Origin: Pedobacter cryoconitis | Lineage (GTDB): Bacteria; Bacteroidota; Bacteroidia; Sphingobacteriales; Sphingobacteriaceae | DNA: 64,000 nt | Direction: 5' to 3' | Assembly: GCF_014200595.1 (NCBI RefSeq) | Contig: NZ_JACHCG010000001.1 | Span: 1,550,001-1,614,000, forward strand | In this document: in pieces, positions 41,972-49,626 of the stretch | Layout: each line of letters starts with the position of its first letter | Position numbering within the stretch: the stretch's first letter is position 1 | Made by a program: the position numbers and the translations under genes | The notes under the pieces: model-generated | Database searches by the model: none | The model's input: the letters and a program-made list of their open reading frames with translations, nothing else | Told to the model about the DNA's origin: nothing

Positions 41972-42261
41972 ATAAATATTCTCTTTTTTGACAAAGATGT
42001 TCTGCGTATATGAAGTTGATGTTATGACATCTTTATGCTAGCCTACATTGGTCGGATGGATATTCTTAAAAGTTGTGAAAGCAGAGGGAATTCAGTTATA
42101 CTAAAATCAGGGCAATTGCGTTTAAAACGTATTATTGTTCCCTAAAAAAGTGTAACAGATAAGTTATATGAAATTAAAGCTAGCAATTTAACTATGTTAA
42201 GCTAATTTTATTTGGTTTTATTTTCTACATTGCAAATGTGTTCTTTGCATACCACATCAAA
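41972..42261. other. Upstream region between the receptor gene and the riboswitch
   Basis: About 290 bp without a gene. It contains a small dyad, GATGT-TATG-ACATC (42018-42031), near the receptor promoter. A weak plus-strand promoter candidate (TTTG at 42211-42214, GTTCTTTG at 42240-42247, spacer 25) is correctly placed to start the riboswitch transcript. Confidence 0.35.
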
Positions 42262-42433
42262 CGGAAATGGTTATACTTAATTGTAGATTAATAGGGAATC
42301 GTGTGTAAATCACGAACTGTCGCGCAACTGTAAGTAACTAAAAAAGTTTTCATCCGCAAAATATCCACTGTTCTACCGATAGAATGGGAAGGATGATGAA
42401 AAACGTTACAAGTCAGGAGACCTGCCTGTTCCG
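42262..42433 (+). ncRNA. Cobalamin (B12) riboswitch aptamer
   Basis: The conserved parts occur in the right order: ATAGGGAATCG, a small stem around TGTAAAT (GTG and CAC), the invariant CTGTCGCGCAACTGTAAG (42317-42334), ATCCACTG (42363-42370), ATGGGAAGG (42384-42392) and the B12 box AAGTCAGGAGACCTGCC (42410-42426). GTAAC at 42334 pairs with GTTAC at 42405, and an outer helix CGGAA (42262-42266) with TTCCG (42429-42433) closes the element. It lies on the plus strand 204 bp ahead of prpB. Cobalamin riboswitches usually turn off B12 uptake or B12-independent isozymes. I see no clear terminator or RBS-masking hairpin after it, so the switching mechanism is open. Confidence 0.93.
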
Positions 42434-42497
42434 AATGGACAATGCTTTCGCGATCCGAAGCTTTTAGTCTGAAAGATGTTTATTCTTACATAAAAAA

Positions 42498-42531
42498 TTG
42501 CGTCCCTGATTCAGGTACTGGTATAACTTTG
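42498..42531 (+). promoter_or_regulatory. Possible second promoter between the riboswitch and prpB
   Basis: TTG (42498-42500) and TAACTTTG (42524-42531; exact TAnnTTTG) are 23 bp apart, in the accepted range. The spacer holds a dyad, GTCCCTG-ATT-CAGGTAC (42502-42518, one mismatch), that could be an operator. If active, transcripts starting about 100 bp before prpB would escape the riboswitch. Confidence 0.45.
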
Positions 42532-42637
42532 TATTTTTATTCGCCTTTCTCTTCTTAAAATCTTCCCGTCAGCAGCATGGTATTAAAAATCAAAGAACAT
42601 TTTTAACCGAAGCTAATTTTTCTAAAAAAAACTGACG

Positions 42638-43537
42638 ATGCAAACAAACAATCTTAAATCCCCCGGTCAAAAATTCCGGGAGGCTTTGAAAACAGAAAGT
42701 CCCCTTCAAATTGTGGGAGCGATCAATGCTAATCATGCTTTATTAGCGCAACAAGCAGGATTTAATGCCATTTATCTTTCAGGAGGCGGTGTAGCTGCCG
42801 GATCATTAGGGATTCCTGATCTGGGTATTACTACACTGGAAGATGTATTAATTGACATTCAACGGATCACTAATGTCTGTGATTTACCGCTGATGGCCGA
42901 TGTAGATACTGGTTTCGGCCCATCTGCATTTAATGTAGCCCGTACTGTAAAATCATTGATTAAAGCAGGTGCTGCGGCACTTCATATCGAAGATCAGGTA
43001 GGTGCCAAGCGCTGTGGCCACCGTCCGGGTAAAGAAGTGGTGAGTAAAGCAGAAATGGCAGATCGCTTGAAAGCTGCTGTGGATGCCAGAACAGATGAGC
43101 ACTTTGTGATTGGTGCCAGAACAGATGCTTTTGCAATCGAAGGACTGGAGAAAACATTGGAAAGAGCTGTTGCCTATAAAGAAGCAGGGGCAGATTTCAT
43201 TTTCGCAGAAGCCGTACCAGATCTTTCTTATTATCAGAAATTTGTAGATGCTACAGGAATTCCTGTACTGGCGAATATTACTGAATTTGGCATGATTGAC
43301 ATGTATACGGTCGACGAGCTTAAAAATGCCGGTGTGGGATTGATCTTATATCCATTATCTGCTTTTCGCGCGGCCAATAAGGCTGCTGAAAATGTCTATC
43401 GGCACATCCGCAAAGACGGTACGCAAAAGAACGTACTGGACACGATGCAAACCAGGGAAGAACTCTATAAGAGTATAGGATACCACAATTACGAGCAAAA
43501 ATTAGATAATCTTTTTAAAGCGCAGAAAAATGATTGA
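42638..43537 (+). CDS. prpB: 2-methylisocitrate lyase
   Basis: A 299-residue enzyme of the isocitrate lyase/PEP mutase family. The diagnostic catalytic motif [10 protein letters not shown] (near residue 123) and the metal site [11 protein letters not shown] (near 86) are intact, and [18 protein letters not shown] is typical of PrpB. It splits 2-methylisocitrate into pyruvate and succinate, the last step of the methylcitrate cycle that consumes propionyl-CoA. It is the first gene of the operon and is preceded by a cobalamin riboswitch. Its stop overlaps the prpC start by eight bases. Confidence 0.97.
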
Positions 43538-44684
43538 TAACCAGGAAGTACCAACGTTCAAGCCAAAAAAAAGTGTAGCACTTTCGGGTGTTGTAGCAGG
43601 GAATACTGCTTTATGCAGTGTAGGGAAAAATGGTAATGATTTACATTACAGAGGTTATAATATTCTGGACTTAGCAGAAAAAGCCGAATTTGAAGAAGTA
43701 GCTTACCTGCTTATTTACGGTTCTTTACCTACTAAACCACAACTGACAAATTATAAGACCAAGTTAAGGTCACTCCGGGGACTGCCTAATTCGGTTAAAA
43801 ATATTTTACAGCAGATTCCGGCAGCTGCGCATCCGATGGACGTAATGCGTTCCACGGTATCGGCCATTGGCAGTATACAACCGGAAAAGGATGATCATAA
43901 TATTGCAGGAACAAGAGACATCGCCGATAAATTACTGGCTTGTTTCAGCTCTGCACTATTATACTGGTATCATTACGCACACAATGGAAAAATCATCGAG
44001 GTAGAAACGGATGATGATTCGATTGGCGGACATTTCTTACATCTTTTACATGGTCGCAAACCTTCAGCATCCTGGGTAGATGCCATGCAGATCTCACTTA
44101 ACCTGTATGCAGAGCATGAGTTCAATGCTTCTACTTTTACCAGTAGGGTAATTGCAGGAACAGGTTCTGATATCTATTCAGCTATTACAGGAGCGATAGG
44201 GGCATTGCGCGGACCTAAGCATGGTGGTGCAAATGAGGTAGCTTTTGATATACAGAGCCGTTATAATTCACCTGATGAGGCTGAAGAAGATATTCGCAGG
44301 CGTGTAGCTAACAAAGAAGTAATCATCGGATTTGGTCATCCGGTTTACACTATTTCAGATCCAAGAAACGTAGTCATTAAAAAGGTAGCCAAAGAGCTTT
44401 CGGAAGAGGCAGGAGACATGCTGCTTTACAATGTTGCGGAGCGTTTGGAAACCCTGATGTGGGAGGAGAAAAAGATGTTCCCGAATCTGGATTGGTTCTC
44501 CGCAGTTTCTTATCATTTAATGGGTGTACCCACCTTAATGTTCACTCCGCTTTTTGTGATTTCAAGAGTTACAGGATGGAGTGCACATATTATCGAACAA
44601 AGACAAGATGGGAAAATCATCAGGCCGAGTGCCAATTATACAGGCCCTGAAAACAGGGAATTTGTTTCAGTTGAAAATCGTTAA
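43530..44684 (+). CDS. prpC: 2-methylcitrate synthase
   Basis: A 384-residue citrate synthase-fold protein. It has [21 protein letters not shown] at the N-terminus, [12 protein letters not shown] near residue 230 and the catalytic His in [15 protein letters not shown] near 270, all typical of 2-methylcitrate synthases. Position between prpB and prpD decides against ordinary citrate synthase. It condenses propionyl-CoA and oxaloacetate to 2-methylcitrate. Its first eight bases overlap prpB, so the two are translationally coupled; prpD follows after 29 bp. Confidence 0.96.
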
Positions 44685-44713
44685 AAGTAATCGTTAATAA
44701 ATCAGATAAAAAA

Positions 44714-46165
44714 ATGTCATCACACATCTCAAATGAAAGACCACAAACTGATCAGGTATTAGTTGATATTGTGGATTATGTATTGAATTACGAAATAAAA
44801 AATGAACTGGCCTGGAAAACAGCACACTACTGTTTGCTGGATACTTTAGGATGCGGTTTGGAAGCGCTAACTTATCCTGCCTGCACTAAATTATTAGGCC
44901 CTGTGGTACAGGGTACCATTGTTCCCAATGGGGCTAAAGTTCCGGGAACACAATTTCAATTAGACCCGATTCAGGCAGCATTCAATATCGGTACAATTAT
45001 TCGCTGGCTGGATTTTAACGACACGTGGCTGGCAGCAGAATGGGGCCATCCTTCGGATAATTTAGGTGGTATTCTGGCTACTGCTGATTGGCTTTCCAGA
45101 ACATCTGTTGCCAATGGAAAACCTGCATTACTGATGAAAGATGTATTGGAAGGGATGATCAAAGCACATGAAATTCAGGGTGTACTAGCTTTGGAGAACT
45201 CTTTCAACAAAGTGGGATTAGACCATGTTATCCTGGTTAAAGTAGCTTCTACAGCTGTTGTTGGAAAATTAATCGGGCTTACCCGTGATGAATTGGTCAA
45301 TGCAGTTTCACTGGCTTTTGTAGATGGACAAGCTTTAAGGACTTATCGTCATTCTCCAAATACTGGAAGCCGTAAGTCGTGGGCTGCGGGAGATGCAACT
45401 TCGCGCGCTGTTCGTTTGGCGTTAATTGCGAAAACAGGAGAGATGGGTTATCCATCTGTACTGACCGCTAAAACCTGGGGATTTTATGATGTCTTGTTCA
45501 AAGGAAATGAGTTCAGGTTCCAACGTGATTACGGTTCTTATGTGATGGAAAATGTACTGTTCAAAATTTCTTTCCCTGCTGAGTTTCACTCTCAAACTGC
45601 GGTAGAAGCTGCCATGACGATTCATGAGAAATTAAAGGCGTCAGGCAAAACAACGGATGATATCAAAAAGATAACTATTCGTACGCATGAAGCGGCTATT
45701 CGTATCATTGATAAGAAAGGGCCATTAAATAATCCTGCGGACAGGGACCATTGTATCCAGTATATGGTTGCTGTACCGTTAATTTATGGAAGGTTAACTG
45801 CTGCCGATTATGAAGACAACATCGCAGTTGATTCAAGAATTGATTTATTACGTGCGCAGATGGAATGTGTGGAAGATGTACAATTTACCACAGATTACCA
45901 TGATCCTGCAAAACGTTCGATTGCCAATGCATTGCTTGTGGAATTAAATGATGGAACTGTGCTGGAAGAAGTTGTAGTTGAATATCCTATCGGGCATCAG
46001 CGCAGAAGAGCAGAAGGGATTCCTGAGTTATTGAAGAAGTTCAAGATCAATCTTGCGCGGAAATTCCCTGAAAAACAACAACAGGCTGTTTTACATGCTG
46101 CATTAGATTACAGCAGACTTGCCAATACGCCTGTAGATGAATTCATGGATTTACTGGTAATTTAA
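44714..46165 (+). CDS. prpD: 2-methylcitrate dehydratase
   Basis: A 483-residue MmgE/PrpD-family protein of normal PrpD length. Typical segments are [15 protein letters not shown] near residue 42, [20 protein letters not shown] near 97, [15 protein letters not shown] and [18 protein letters not shown] near 285. It dehydrates 2-methylcitrate to 2-methylaconitate; the usual next step uses an aconitase, which is not in the window. This is an Fe-S-independent, cofactor-free enzyme, so the operon pattern is prpBCD without acnD/prpF. The thioesterase gene follows after 25 bp. Confidence 0.96.
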
Positions 46166-46190
46166 TTATTTTAAATGAACTTCGTCACAA

Positions 46191-46574
46191 ATGACAACAG
46201 AAGAAAAAATTGATCAATCGGAGACCCATGTTTTTAAAGTGGTATTTCCTGATACGACCAATCATCACAATACGATGTTCGGCGGAAGAATATTAATGAT
46301 GATGACCGAAACGGCGTTTATGACGGCAACCCGGTTTTGCCGGAAGAGTTTTGTGCTGGTGAGCAGTGGTCAGATAGATTTTAAAAAGCCTATTCCTGCT
46401 GGTTCTATGGTTGAATTGGTAGGCAGGGTGGAGCGTATTGGCAATACCAGTATTACTATTCAGGTAGAGGTCTATCTGGAAAAAATGAGGGAAGAGTTCA
46501 GAGAAAAGGTAGTGAGCGGTGCGTTTACTTTAGTCGCAATTGACGAGGATAATAAACCTGTTTTAATCCGTTAA
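46191..46574 (+). CDS. Acyl-CoA thioesterase (hotdog fold)
   Basis: A 127-residue single-hotdog thioesterase of the YciA/cytosolic acyl-CoA hydrolase type. The motif VFPDTTNHHNTMFGGRILMMMTE (with the family N-x-x-x-x-F-G-G core) lies near residue 17, and GQIDFKKPIPAGSMVELVGRV follows. It hydrolyses acyl-CoA in the cytosol. As the last gene of the prp operon, it may relieve the trapping of CoA as propionyl- or other short-chain acyl-CoA; that is inference from position. A perfect terminator follows 6 bp after its stop. Confidence 0.9.
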   Translation: MTTEEKIDQSETHVFKVVFPDTTNHHNTMFGGRILMMMTETAFMTATRFCRKSFVLVSSGQIDFKKPIPAGSMVELVGRVERIGNTSITIQVEVYLEKMREEFREKVVSGAFTLVAIDEDNKPVLIR

Positions 46575-46580
46575 ATCCTT

Positions 46581-46611
46581 AACCAACCCGGCTTTAAAAG
46601 CCGGGTTGGTT
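46581..46611. terminator. Bidirectional terminator between prp operon and lrp gene
   Basis: A long perfect hairpin, AACCAACCCGGCTTT paired with AAAGCCGGGTTGGTT, separated by one base, with T-rich and A-rich flanks. It ends both the prp operon and the convergent Lrp-type gene. Confidence 0.92.
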
Positions 46612-46612
46612 T

Positions 46613-47074
46613 TTAAAAACTAATATTATAAGAGTTTTTGATTTCTGCCATTGCAAAAGTACTATGTGTACTTCCTATGCTTTTAACAGAGCCTAATTTG
46701 TTAAAAACAAAATCCTGGTAATGTTTCATATCTCTGGCGTAAACCTTTAGTATAAAATCAAAGTCCCCCGAAATATTATAACATTCCACCACTTCATCGA
46801 TCTTTAAAATGTCTTCTACAAATTGGTGACCTATTTTTCTATCGTGTTGTTTGAGTTTAATATTGCAAAAGACTATGAATCCCTGGTTAAATTTTTCGGG
46901 ATCAAGTATCGCAATATACTTTTTAATATATCCATTACTTTCCAGTCTTTTTACCCGTTCAAAAACAGGCGATGGTGATAAACTTACTTTAGCCGCAAGC
47001 TCTTTTATCGTGTAATTTGAATTGTTACCTAATATCTTCAGCAGCAATAAATCTGTATCATCTAATTCGTCCAT
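46613..47074 (-). CDS. Lrp/AsnC-family transcriptional regulator
   Basis: A 153-residue Lrp-type regulator: N-terminal helix-turn-helix (about 5-60; NYTIKELAAKVSLSPSPVFERVKRLESNG) and a C-terminal RAM ligand-binding domain (about 70-150; VVECYNISGDFDFILKVYARDM). Such proteins sense amino acids and control their metabolism. It is divergent from metE with 236 bp between. An exact -7 box and a dyad in the promoter spacer suggest autorepression; control of metE is a plausible inference. Confidence 0.94.
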   Translation of the reverse strand: MDELDDTDLLLLKILGNNSNYTIKELAAKVSLSPSPVFERVKRLESNGYIKKYIAILDPEKFNQGFIVFCNIKLKQHDRKIGHQFVEDILKIDEVVECYNISGDFDFILKVYARDMKHYQDFVFNKLGSVKSIGSTHSTFAMAEIKNSYNISF

Positions 47075-47097
47075 AGAATAATTTTCCTTAGTGATGC

Positions 47098-47129
47098 CAA
47101 AAATAAAGACTTAAAAGCATAATATGCTT
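47098..47129 (-). promoter_or_regulatory. lrp promoter with dyad operator
   Basis: On the minus strand TATTTTTG (47098-47105) matches TAnnTTTG exactly, 23 bp before the ATG. The perfect dyad AAGCATA-A-TATGCTT (47115-47129) begins nine bases above it, within the -33/-7 spacer, a place that fits autorepression by the Lrp protein. Confidence 0.5.
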
Positions 47130-47198
47130 CTGTTTTATCATAAAAAAGTTATTTATCCTTATTTATTGCAAGTAATAAAGTTTTAAAATCTTCATATA

Positions 47199-47206
47199 TA
47201 CCTTTG
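47199..47206 (+). promoter_or_regulatory. Predicted -7 box of metE
   Basis: TACCTTTG matches TAnnTTTG exactly and lies 104 bp before the metE ATG. No -33 TTG is clear at the standard distance. The leader of about 98 bases shows no SAM or cobalamin riboswitch motifs. Confidence 0.5.
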
Positions 47207-47310
47207 TAAGGAATTAAAAACTGATTTGTAGCAAATAGAGCACTGGTTATTGAGAAATAAACGGGGAGTTTTTTACAATGATTATTAACCATTTAAAAAG
47301 TTGAACAAAG

Positions 47311-49626
47311 ATGCAAACGCACAACCTTGGCTATCCGCGAATTGGTAGCAACAGAGAACTAAAAAAAGCCTGTGAACAATACTGGGCAGGAAAAATTACT
47401 TTAGCAGAGCTATTAAGTAAAGGAAAAAATATATCAGAACATAACTGGAAATTACAACAGGAAGCGGGAATAGACCTGATCCCTTCTAACGATTTTTCGT
47501 ATTATGACCAGATCCTGGATATGTCCTTAACAGTAGGTGCTATTCCAAGGCGCTATAATCAGGTAGCCTTAAAATCCAATAATGAAATGGATTTGTATTT
47601 TGCTATGGCAAGAGGTTATCAGAAAGAAGGATTGGACATTACCGCAATGGAAATGACAAAATGGTTAGATACAAATTACCATTATATCGTTCCTGAATTT
47701 TACAAAGATCAGGAGTTCAAATTATTCTCTAATAAAATCGTTAACGAGTTTGTAAGTGCAAAGCGTTTAGGCATCAATAGCAAGCCTGTAATCATTGGCC
47801 CGGTTTCTTACCTGTTATTAGGGAAAGAAAAAGAGGAAGGCTTTGATAAACTGGATTTAGTGAAACGTTTACTTCCAGTATATGTAAAGATTTTAACGGA
47901 GTTAAAAGCACATGGAGCTGAATGGGTACAATTTGATGAACCATTCCTGGCTTTAGATATTAATGCTCAGGCAAAAGAAGCTTATCAGTATGTTTATGCA
48001 GAGCTGAAAAAGAAATTTCCACAACTGAAAATCCTGGTAGCTACTTATTTTGAGGGTTTAAAAGATAATCTGGTTTTAGCAGCGTCATTACCTGTTCATG
48101 CTTTACATATTGATCTGGTACGTAATCCAGAGCAATTGGATGAGGTACTGAATGCTATTCCTGAGCAATTGATTTTATCTCTGGGGGTAGTTGATGGAAG
48201 AAATGTCTGGAAAAATGATTTTGAGCAATCTTTGTCGATCATAAAAAAAGCAGTGGATCAACTAGGAAGCGACCGCGTACTGATTGCACCTTCGTGCTCT
48301 TTGTTGCATTCGCCTTGTGATCTGGATTTAGAAACCAATGATCAAACTTTAACTCCTGAGATTAAACAATGGTTAGCTTTTGCTAAACAAAAGATTGATG
48401 AAGTAGTGACGTTGAAGGCTTTGGCCTGTGAAAACCCTGATGCAATTGCATTGGAGAAATTAGAAAAAAATAAAAAGGCTACTTCCAACCGCAGAACATC
48501 GAAACTGATTCACAATGAGCAAATCAAACAGCGTGTAAGTGCGATTACGGCTAAAGATGCAGCGCGTACAAGTCCTTTTCCTGTACGTAAAAAAATACAG
48601 CAGGAAATTTTACAGTTGCCTCTTTTTCCAACGACAACTATAGGTTCATTTCCACAGACTCCTGAGGTTAGAAGCTGGAGAGCGCAATTCAAGAAAGGCG
48701 AAATTACTCCGGCAGAATATGATACCTTATTGAAAAAAGAGACAGAAGAAACAATTCGCTGGCAAGAAGAAGTAGGTATTGATGTATTGGTTCATGGTGA
48801 GTTTGAACGCAATGACATGGTAGAATATTTTGGCGAACAGCTGGATGGTTTCACCTTTACAAAAAATGGCTGGGTACAAAGTTATGGTAGTCGTTGTGTT
48901 AAGCCTCCTATCATCTATGGAGATGTACACAGACCAGAGGCAATGACTGTTTACTGGACGGAATTTGCACAATCATTGACTAAAAGTTTGGTGAAAGGTA
49001 TGTTGACCGGCCCTGTTACGATTTTACAATGGTCTTTTGTCCGCAATGACCAGCCACGTTCTGTTACTTGTAACCAAATCGCATTTGCGATTCGTGATGA
49101 AGTGGCAGACCTGGAAAAAGCGGGGATCAAAGTTATCCAGATTGATGAGCCAGCTATCCGTGAAGGTTTACCTTTAAGAAAAGCAGATTGGCAAGCTTAT
49201 TTGCAATGGGCAGTAAACGCGTTTAAAATTTCAGCAAGTGGTGTAAATGATGGAACACAGATTCATACACATATGTGTTATTCTGAATTTAATGATATCA
49301 TTCAGAATATTGCTGATATGGATGCGGATGTAATTACCATTGAGTGCTCGCGTTCACAAATGGAACTATTAGATGCTTTTGCTGATTTCAAATATCCGAA
49401 TGATATCGGGCCGGGAGTTTATGATATCCATTCTCCAAGGGTACCTTCAAAGGAAGAAATGGTAGCGCTTTTAGTAAAAGCGAAAGCTGTGATTCCAGCT
49501 GAGCAACTTTGGGTAAACCCTGATTGCGGATTAAAAACCCGCCATTGGCCAGAAACTAAAAGTGCTTTAATTGCAATGGTCGCAGCAGCTAAAGAACTAA
49601 GTGCAAAGGAATACGCATTAAATTAG
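47311..49626 (+). CDS. metE: Cobalamin-independent methionine synthase
   Basis: A 771-residue MetE of normal length with the two barrels: N-terminal (LGYPRIGSNRELKKACEQYW; about 1-360) and C-terminal catalytic (about 430-770; TTIGSFPQTPEVRSWRAQFK). Zinc ligands are visible in IHTHMCYSEF and NPDCGLKTR, and IQIDEPAIREGLPLR contacts the substrate. It transfers a methyl group from methyltetrahydropteroyl-polyglutamate to homocysteine. In many bacteria metE is under a B12 riboswitch; here the leader shows none, though one lies 4.9 kb upstream ahead of prpB. The divergent Lrp gene is the likely local regulator. Confidence 0.97.
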   Translation: MQTHNLGYPRIGSNRELKKACEQYWAGKITLAELLSKGKNISEHNWKLQQEAGIDLIPSNDFSYYDQILDMSLTVGAIPRRYNQVALKSNNEMDLYFAMARGYQKEGLDITAMEMTKWLDTNYHYIVPEFYKDQEFKLFSNKIVNEFVSAKRLGINSKPVIIGPVSYLLLGKEKEEGFDKLDLVKRLLPVYVKILTELKAHGAEWVQFDEPFLALDINAQAKEAYQYVYAELKKKFPQLKILVATYFEGLKDNLVLAASLPVHALHIDLVRNPEQLDEVLNAIPEQLILSLGVVDGRNVWKNDFEQSLSIIKKAVDQLGSDRVLIAPSCSLLHSPCDLDLETNDQTLTPEIKQWLAFAKQKIDEVVTLKALACENPDAIALEKLEKNKKATSNRRTSKLIHNEQIKQRVSAITAKDAARTSPFPVRKKIQQEILQLPLFPTTTIGSFPQTPEVRSWRAQFKKGEITPAEYDTLLKKETEETIRWQEEVGIDVLVHGEFERNDMVEYFGEQLDGFTFTKNGWVQSYGSRCVKPPIIYGDVHRPEAMTVYWTEFAQSLTKSLVKGMLTGPVTILQWSFVRNDQPRSVTCNQIAFAIRDEVADLEKAGIKVIQIDEPAIREGLPLRKADWQAYLQWAVNAFKISASGVNDGTQIHTHMCYSEFNDIIQNIADMDADVITIECSRSQMELLDAFADFKYPNDIGPGVYDIHSPRVPSKEEMVALLVKAKAVIPAEQLWVNPDCGLKTRHWPETKSALIAMVAAAKELSAKEYALN

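Follow-up and report, generated by a model that had tools for sequence, protein, structure and literature searches.

In Pedobacter cryoconitis, a cobalamin riboswitch lies directly in front of prpB, the first gene of a methylcitrate cycle operon, and this locus raises the question of whether coenzyme B12 determines by which route propionyl-CoA is consumed. The locus was analyzed within a window of 64,000 nucleotides (nt), by which we mean the whole stretch of DNA under study (contig NZ_JACHCG010000001.1, positions 1,550,001 to 1,614,000); coordinates count from its first letter. With a probability of roughly 80%, a riboswitch of class-I type keeps prpB, prpC, prpD, and a fourth gene, coding for a thioesterase, low in the presence of coenzyme B12 and switches them on when B12 is short. 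An original prediction, made from the letters of the window, had likewise interpreted the element as turning prpBCD off with B12, and our results support this interpretation.

The aptamer and the genes behind it

A covariance scan against Rfam yielded a single match above its gathering score in the entire window, to RF00174 (Cobalamin), which covered model positions 1 to 189 of 189 and whose score (Table 1) compares with a gathering score of 31.5 bits. Both hallmarks of this family, the B12 box and the GGGAA/CAACTGTAA core, were present, and the closing helix and B12 box were read back exactly where the original prediction had put them; the Rfam alignment draws the closing helix somewhat unlike this pairing. 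Judged by the covariance match and these motifs, the element is confirmed as a full-length cobalamin riboswitch, which would be expected to bind cobalamin. The predicted link of this aptamer to the prp genes stood, but the hairpin P13 at its 3' end with its L5-L13 pairing, the neighboring metE gene, and the probable derivation of the switch from metE had been overlooked. Complementarity of L5 and L13 over 6 pairs was found by script in 20 of the 21 prp aptamers identified here; in the remaining locus, L011, which the script pattern missed, it was seen by eye. Among btu-type switches with GTCCC as L5 that the script could parse, four had GGGAT as loop L13.

The aptamer is oriented in sense and points, as predicted, at prpB, the next gene, which starts 194 nt past the end of the model match; both are presumably joined in one transcript. 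Genes prpB, prpC, and prpD were identified as predicted, but the position that had been given as the end of the prpBCD operon proved to be the stop of the then unnamed thioesterase gene. prpB and prpC overlap, and gaps of 29 nt and 25 nt precede prpD and the thioesterase gene, respectively. Terminator-like sites such as the one following this run occurred 4 times in the region, compared with 3.7 expected from shuffles, i.e., without excess.

TABLE 1 Riboswitch elements, genes, and other features of the prp locus (window coordinates)
Feature	Position	Strand	Evidence or remarks
Cobalamin riboswitch aptamer (RF00174, full length)	42251..42443	+	95.3 bits, E 1.8e-22
Closing helix P1, CGGAA 42262-42266 / TTCCG 42429-42433	42262..42433	+	Letters read back
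L5, GTCGCG, putative kissing partner of L13	42319..42324	+	Read from letters
B12 box, AAGTCAGGAGACCTGCC	42410..42426	+	Read from letters
Hairpin P13, GCTTTCGCGATCCGAAGC; loop L13 CGCGAT at 42449-42454	42444..42461	+	Complementary to L5, 6 pairs
Leader between P13 and prpB, candidate platform region	42462..42637	+	CGTCAG 42567-42572 / CTGACG 42632-42637, potential pairing immediately 5' of the start codon
prpB, 2-methylisocitrate lyase	42638..43537	+	TIGR02317, 409.5 bits, cut-off 354.4
prpC, 2-methylcitrate synthase	43530..44684	+	NF009006, 699.6 bits, cut-off 550
prpD, 2-methylcitrate dehydratase	44714..46165	+	TIGR02330, 846.6 bits, cut-off 458
4HBT-fold acyl-CoA thioesterase, fourth gene in run	46191..46574	+	PF03061, 60.4 bits, cut-off 20.6
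Terminator-like hairpin, 14 nt 3' of thioesterase stop	46588..46609	+	Pattern match only
Lrp/AsnC-family regulator adjoining metE	46613..47074	-	PF01037, 79.6 bits
metE, B12-independent methionine synthase	47311..49626	+	TIGR01371, 1131.4 bits

Riboswitch and mutase in prpB-carrying genomes

The B12-dependent counterpart of the prp route is encoded in the same genome. For mutA and mutB, whose presence the original prediction had put up for checking, a profile search of the genome detected a large mutase part (515 residues; TIGR00641, 752.6 bits, cut-off 303.8) and a separate B12-binding protein (139 residues; TIGR00640, 166.3 bits, cut-off 57.45), together with a methylmalonyl-CoA epimerase (TIGR03081, 143.2 bits, cut-off 114.95). 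An IcmF-type fused mutase and MetH (2101 bits) are encoded as well, as are corrinoid salvage and adenosyltransferase genes. Genome-wide, RF00174 matched at three sites, located before prpB, before a TonB-dependent receptor gene, and before a BtuF-like gene; the last sits in a cluster with matches to CobQ, CobD, CbiB, BtuC- and BtuD-like proteins, an adenosyltransferase, CobU, CobT, and CobS, several of them below the curated cut-off.

Counted at E values up to 1e-80, prpB is rare. In the family of the window, it was present in 21 of 121 sampled genomes and, within the genus, in 1 of 14 (the window's own). It was further found in 19 of 197 genomes of the family of Chryseobacterium and in 5 of 395 genomes of a phylum sample. 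Four sets of loci were scanned with Rfam, and a riboswitch preceded prpB in sense in 8 of 13, 0 of 17, 0 of 18, and 12 of 18 of them, respectively. Including the window, 67 prpB genomes were tested for riboswitch and mutase, and 21 carried the riboswitch while 46 did not. These 21 comprise the window, P. cryoconitis M2T3, six named Chryseobacterium, Elizabethkingia occulta, and 12 others of that family, three of which group with Elizabethkingia and nine of which we assigned to the Chryseobacterium group from their tree position and sequence. The riboswitch-prpB link is hence kept in 20 further genomes, whose aptamers scored 94 to 105 bits and retained P13. In Proteobacteria, 52 of the 55 loci L036 to L090 were searched upstream of prpB with a regular expression for the B12 box (up to 3 substitutions, no Rfam scan), which gave a single match, devoid of the core motif; the other three, including Bacteroidota-type loci, were scanned with Rfam instead. 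In a metagenome-assembled genome (MAG) of Chitinophagaceae (L023:2202-5873), a riboswitch was located on the other strand, before a metE gene divergent from prpB.

Full-length mutase (PF01642, 746 to 759 bits over the full model) was present in all 21 genomes with a riboswitch before prpB but in only 1 of the 46 without it (L027/G137, a MAG; 723.6 bits). In the others of these 46, matches were of IcmF type, formed a degenerate pair (Myroides, L016), or were absent altogether. Viewed from the side of the mutase, the riboswitch occurred in 21 of the 22 prpB genomes that have it in full length and in 0 of the 45 that do not. Completeness was stated for 23 of the 46 riboswitch-free genomes (97 to 100 percent), none of which had the mutase, while a missed gene is possible in the rest. 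For co-occurrence of riboswitch and mutase, a Fisher test, which ignores kinship, gave P = 1.7e-16. The same association was seen within genera as named in the records: P. cryoconitis M2T3 has both, whereas P. cryoconitis Xaverov 94 has neither (IcmF only), and E. occulta has both, whereas E. argenteiflava has neither (one relative listing behind these comparisons consisted of the best 80 matches).

Since the riboswitch is found, among the relatives examined, where the B12-dependent route is also present, the cell probably picks its propionate route by the level of B12. When B12 is available, propionyl-CoA would be routed via methylmalonyl-CoA mutase. In its absence, the mutase would have no cofactor, and methylmalonyl-CoA and propionyl-CoA would build up; the B12-free methylcitrate cycle would then take over propionyl-CoA, and the thioesterase would perhaps relieve trapped CoA. 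The B12 logic of metE would thereby be stretched to a three-enzyme bypass. Class-I cobalamin switches reportedly favor adenosylcobalamin (PMC12713380), which is also the mutase's cofactor.

Separately, Myroides sp. NP-2 (L176:4510-7289, minus strand) encodes a MutA-/MutB-like pair of 453 and 468 residues, which score below the curated cut-offs and lack the B12-binding domain and the usual RQYAGF and SGYH letters. This is a candidate for a degenerate or B12-free mutase-like pair.

Kinship with metE switches

In the searched genomes, metE carried a riboswitch of its own in 20 of 24 loci (19 by B12 box; L013 by RF00174 position), and the loci without one were those of the window, L011, L026, and L160. 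Before the window's metE, no cobalamin match was detected at E values up to 0.5 within 46560-47400. Among 20 riboswitch regions fetched from the genus of the window, 5 had the riboswitch preceding metE. An aptamer tree of 76 rows united the prp, metE, thioesterase, and three other switches in one supported branch (98/94) and placed a btu-type branch apart (98/92). The tree has long branches, and most btu labels were given by leader similarity: 11 switches of the genus bear this label, the downstream gene being identified by tblastn in 3. On this tree, prp control requires two changes (in the Chryseobacterium family and in the window plus L011), although a single prp clade was not rejected (approximately unbiased test, P = 0.0775).

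Traces of metE were also detected between the prp aptamers and prpB. Comparison of the window's metE region with the 21 prp spacers on the same strand gave E values of 2e-7 (L148), 4e-6 (L019), 1e-5 (L145), and 6e-4 (L149 and L012), and comparison of 11 spacers with 9 metE genes gave values below 0.001 for L019, L148, and L143. The L019 spacer aligned with the metE of its own genome from -86 to +69 (163 columns at 64 percent, E 9e-8). Pooling both DNA comparisons, 6 of the 15 long prp spacers of the Chryseobacterium group significantly matched a metE leader and start, and the switch was therefore probably taken over from metE. In the other spacers of this group, the remnant is read from aligning 6 selected prp leaders with 6 of metE. 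A tblastn search of the prp spacers with MetE protein gave nothing under E 2.3, so the remnant is a matter of DNA matches only.

From the metE-derived ATG or GTG, a frame of 63 to 78 codons stays open in 11 of the 15 Chryseobacterium-group leaders, its end lying anywhere from 15 nt ahead of the prpB start to 14 nt into the gene. The frame is shorter in L019, L145, and L148 (36 to 53 codons), stopping 55 to 84 nt short of prpB; none was found in L147, and none in the window or L011. In shuffles, such a frame was open by chance with P < 0.05 in 7 of 10 tested leaders, which are mutually related (L149 and three GTG starts were excluded). In the window and L011, 210 to 211 nt separate the B12 box from the start of prpB; for metE, the distance is 210 to 217 nt in three relatives of the genus and 192 and 172 nt in two others. 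The first codons of the window's prpB (MQTNNL, 42638-42661) resemble those of metE (MQTHNL, 47311-47334); PrpB of Myroides, without riboswitch, has TNN too, and the resemblance may be due to chance or common origin.

Gene order varied among relatives. In all four fetched relatives of the genus, the order was riboswitch-metE-thioesterase, in the window and L011 riboswitch-prpBCD-thioesterase-lrp-metE, and in one Chryseobacterium riboswitch-prpBCD, five open reading frames (ORFs), lrp, and riboswitch-metE. prpB and metE lie at most 12 kb apart in 7 of 15 Chryseobacterium-group genomes. MetE of the window is 76 to 78 percent identical to that of the Chryseobacterium group, versus 65 to 73 percent to that of five relatives of its own genus, which hints at transfer. 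In a Chitinophagales MAG (L040:2675-5897), metE ends 12 nt before prpB in one run, and no cobalamin riboswitch was found before it at E values up to 0.1. Five genomes (L117, L119 to L122) have a metE-branch riboswitch about 115 to 119 nt before a 127-residue thioesterase, and the three of these proteins that were aligned are 57 to 59 percent identical to the window's. They may be paralogues of it, because other Bacteroidota commonly have closer relatives of the window thioesterase and, of 26 other loci with sequence after prpD, a single one (L011) has the gene there.

A tentative scenario, which we regard as possible but doubtful, would unite these observations in one lineage. A riboswitch born at metE would have spread in Bacteroidota to a B12 shortage module of metE, prpBCD, and the thioesterase. 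In the Chryseobacterium group, prp would have been captured via loss of a metE copy, whose start was kept as a relay ORF translationally coupled to prpB; in the Pedobacter lineage, prpBCD would have taken the place of metE directly, which freed metE from the switch. The thioesterase would then be an unrecognized B12 shortage enzyme acting on propionyl- or methylmalonyl-CoA.

Leaders of other switches offered candidates for how such aptamers reach a start codon. Many metE leaders (L180 to L201 and L207 to L219) contain, close to the metE start, an element with the potential to pair with the P13 5' arm; in those of the Elizabethkingia group, both partners of the pairing have changed (CTCTCG with GAGAGT). 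This element is a candidate platform for metE. In another type of Bacteroidota cobalamin switch (L127, L138 to L141), GGAGG lies inside P13 a few bases before the start codon, an arrangement suggestive of a directly masked ribosome binding site. A conserved leader peptide in prp leaders, read from the ATG with which P13 begins (MLSR...; 38 codons long in the window, 10 in L011, 11 in most others), was considered and rejected, as P13 itself explains the conservation.

Proposed control of prpBCD and comparison with known systems

Several observations weigh against control of prpBCD by B12. The genomes are not independent rows: on a PrpB tree, the riboswitch requires 4 changes and the mutase 5, and only 2 independent contrasts fell on supported branches (sign test, median P = 0.5; proteobacterial rows L036, L038, L041, and L052 left out). 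Both contrasts pointed in the expected direction in 180 of 200 pairings, and in the other 20 one did and one showed no difference. The pattern is thus clean but built on few events, and the phylogenetic evidence is thin. G137, moreover, carries mutase and prp genes but no riboswitch. In the window's genome, the two mutase parts are encoded on different contigs, and among PDB entries the large part matched 2-hydroxyisobutyryl-CoA mutase best (512.9 bits), with human methylmalonyl-CoA mutase close behind (495 bits). The large part has RQYAGF and ARGTY like the human enzyme, whereas 2-hydroxyisobutyryl-CoA mutase has RQIAGF and AQKEY; we take the former to be methylmalonyl-CoA-type letters at two active-site places, and they favor methylmalonyl-CoA as the likely substrate. 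The thioesterase, given its scarcity behind prpD, had to be rejected as a regular member of prp operons.

Further points against concern the leader. prp leaders are long (192 to 194 nt in the two Pedobacter, 320 to 322 in the Elizabethkingia group, 387 to 473 in the rest), and a distal element able to pair with the P13 5' arm reached P < 0.05 in 0 of 21 of them (300 dinucleotide shuffles per leader), compared with 8 of 25 metE leaders in the same test. When P13 was forced or freed in folding of the leaders of the window and L011, predicted access to the start of prpB barely changed (mean unpaired at -30 to -1, 0.42/0.43 and 0.57/0.57). Folding did predict, for the window and in part for L011, the CGTCAG/CTGACG hairpin that reaches up to the start of prpB.

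The lack of a detectable platform, together with the kinship to metE aptamers and the metE leader and start remnant, could also mean that the aptamer is a leftover metE riboswitch, which hitchhiked with the DNA and still folds but has lost control of prp. We consider this unlikely, as the aptamer scores have been maintained in 20 relatives, P13 and the L5-L13 match have been kept, and the riboswitch is distributed with the mutase (21 of 22 versus 0 of 45). Less probable still is transcription of prpBCD from a promoter between aptamer and prpB, with the riboswitch governing only a short leader RNA. The sequence TAACTTTG at 42524-42531, another point against control by the switch, resembles such a promoter in that it fits TAnnTTTG, which we take to be the consensus of the Bacteroidota -7 element, but it is absent at the same place in L011. 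Furthermore, TATATTTA, with 5 of the 6 specified letters of this consensus, is present upstream of the aptamer in 19 of 19 Chryseobacterium-family leaders, although no clear -7-like motif was seen there in the window and L011.

A switch that activates prp with B12, or acts via antisense RNA, appears very improbable. There is a precedent in Listeria, where an antisense RNA is under the control of a cobalamin riboswitch, as cited in PMC11575231, but the aptamer studied here lies in sense directly before prpB, the mutase co-occurrence fits an off-switch, and B12 represses prp in Mycobacterium tuberculosis (PMC10924821). Control of prpBCD as an off-switch thus remains the reading we favor.

The original prediction had considered such use of a cobalamin riboswitch uncommon. 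No recognizable report of one on prp genes was found in open-access full texts (subscription papers and RegPrecise being outside the scope of this search), and the main text of a 2013 riboswitch regulon survey (PMC3766115) contained no prp, propion, or methylmalonyl, while its supplementary target lists may hold an unremarked entry. If our interpretation is true, B12 status would be a direct switch between two known propionyl-CoA routes, with no protein regulator, and cobalamin riboswitches would be seen to control the methylcitrate cycle in addition to their other pathways. Transfer of a riboswitch from one gene to another also seems traceable in the prp leaders, which further suggest that the thioesterase takes part in the B12 shortage response.

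The closest parallel in regulation is the metE riboswitch. It belongs to the same aptamer family and tree branch as the prp aptamers and follows the off-with-B12 logic proposed for prp, and metE repression matching the use of MetH has been tested with Priestia megaterium genes (PMC9600662). The prp target differs in being a multienzyme bypass of the mutase, not an isozyme, and its leader is remodeled. In M. tuberculosis, methylcitrate genes and metE likewise lie side by side, in a prpR-prpD-prpC-Rv1132-metE cluster. There, added B12 represses prpD, prpC, and metE, and the lowering by B12 was demonstrated by RNA sequencing, quantitative PCR, and targeted proteomics (PMC10924821). However, prp of M. 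tuberculosis is described as being under the protein PrpR, and its cobalamin riboswitches are reported on other genes, namely, metE and PPE2 (PMC4428469) and rpfB (PMC12713380). Because B12 repression of prp uses another regulator in that organism, different means may have led to the same physiology. An upstream ORF mediates the action of the M. tuberculosis ppe2 riboswitch (PMC12713380); the Chryseobacterium group similarly has a short ORF between aptamer and prpB, often abutting the latter, as a putative relay, while the window and L011 are without such an ORF. Finally, the mutA cobalamin riboswitch of V. parvula (PMC9600662) is also tied to propionate metabolism, but it is named for the mutase gene, i.e., the B12-dependent branch, and not for the bypass that the switch of P. 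cryoconitis would control.

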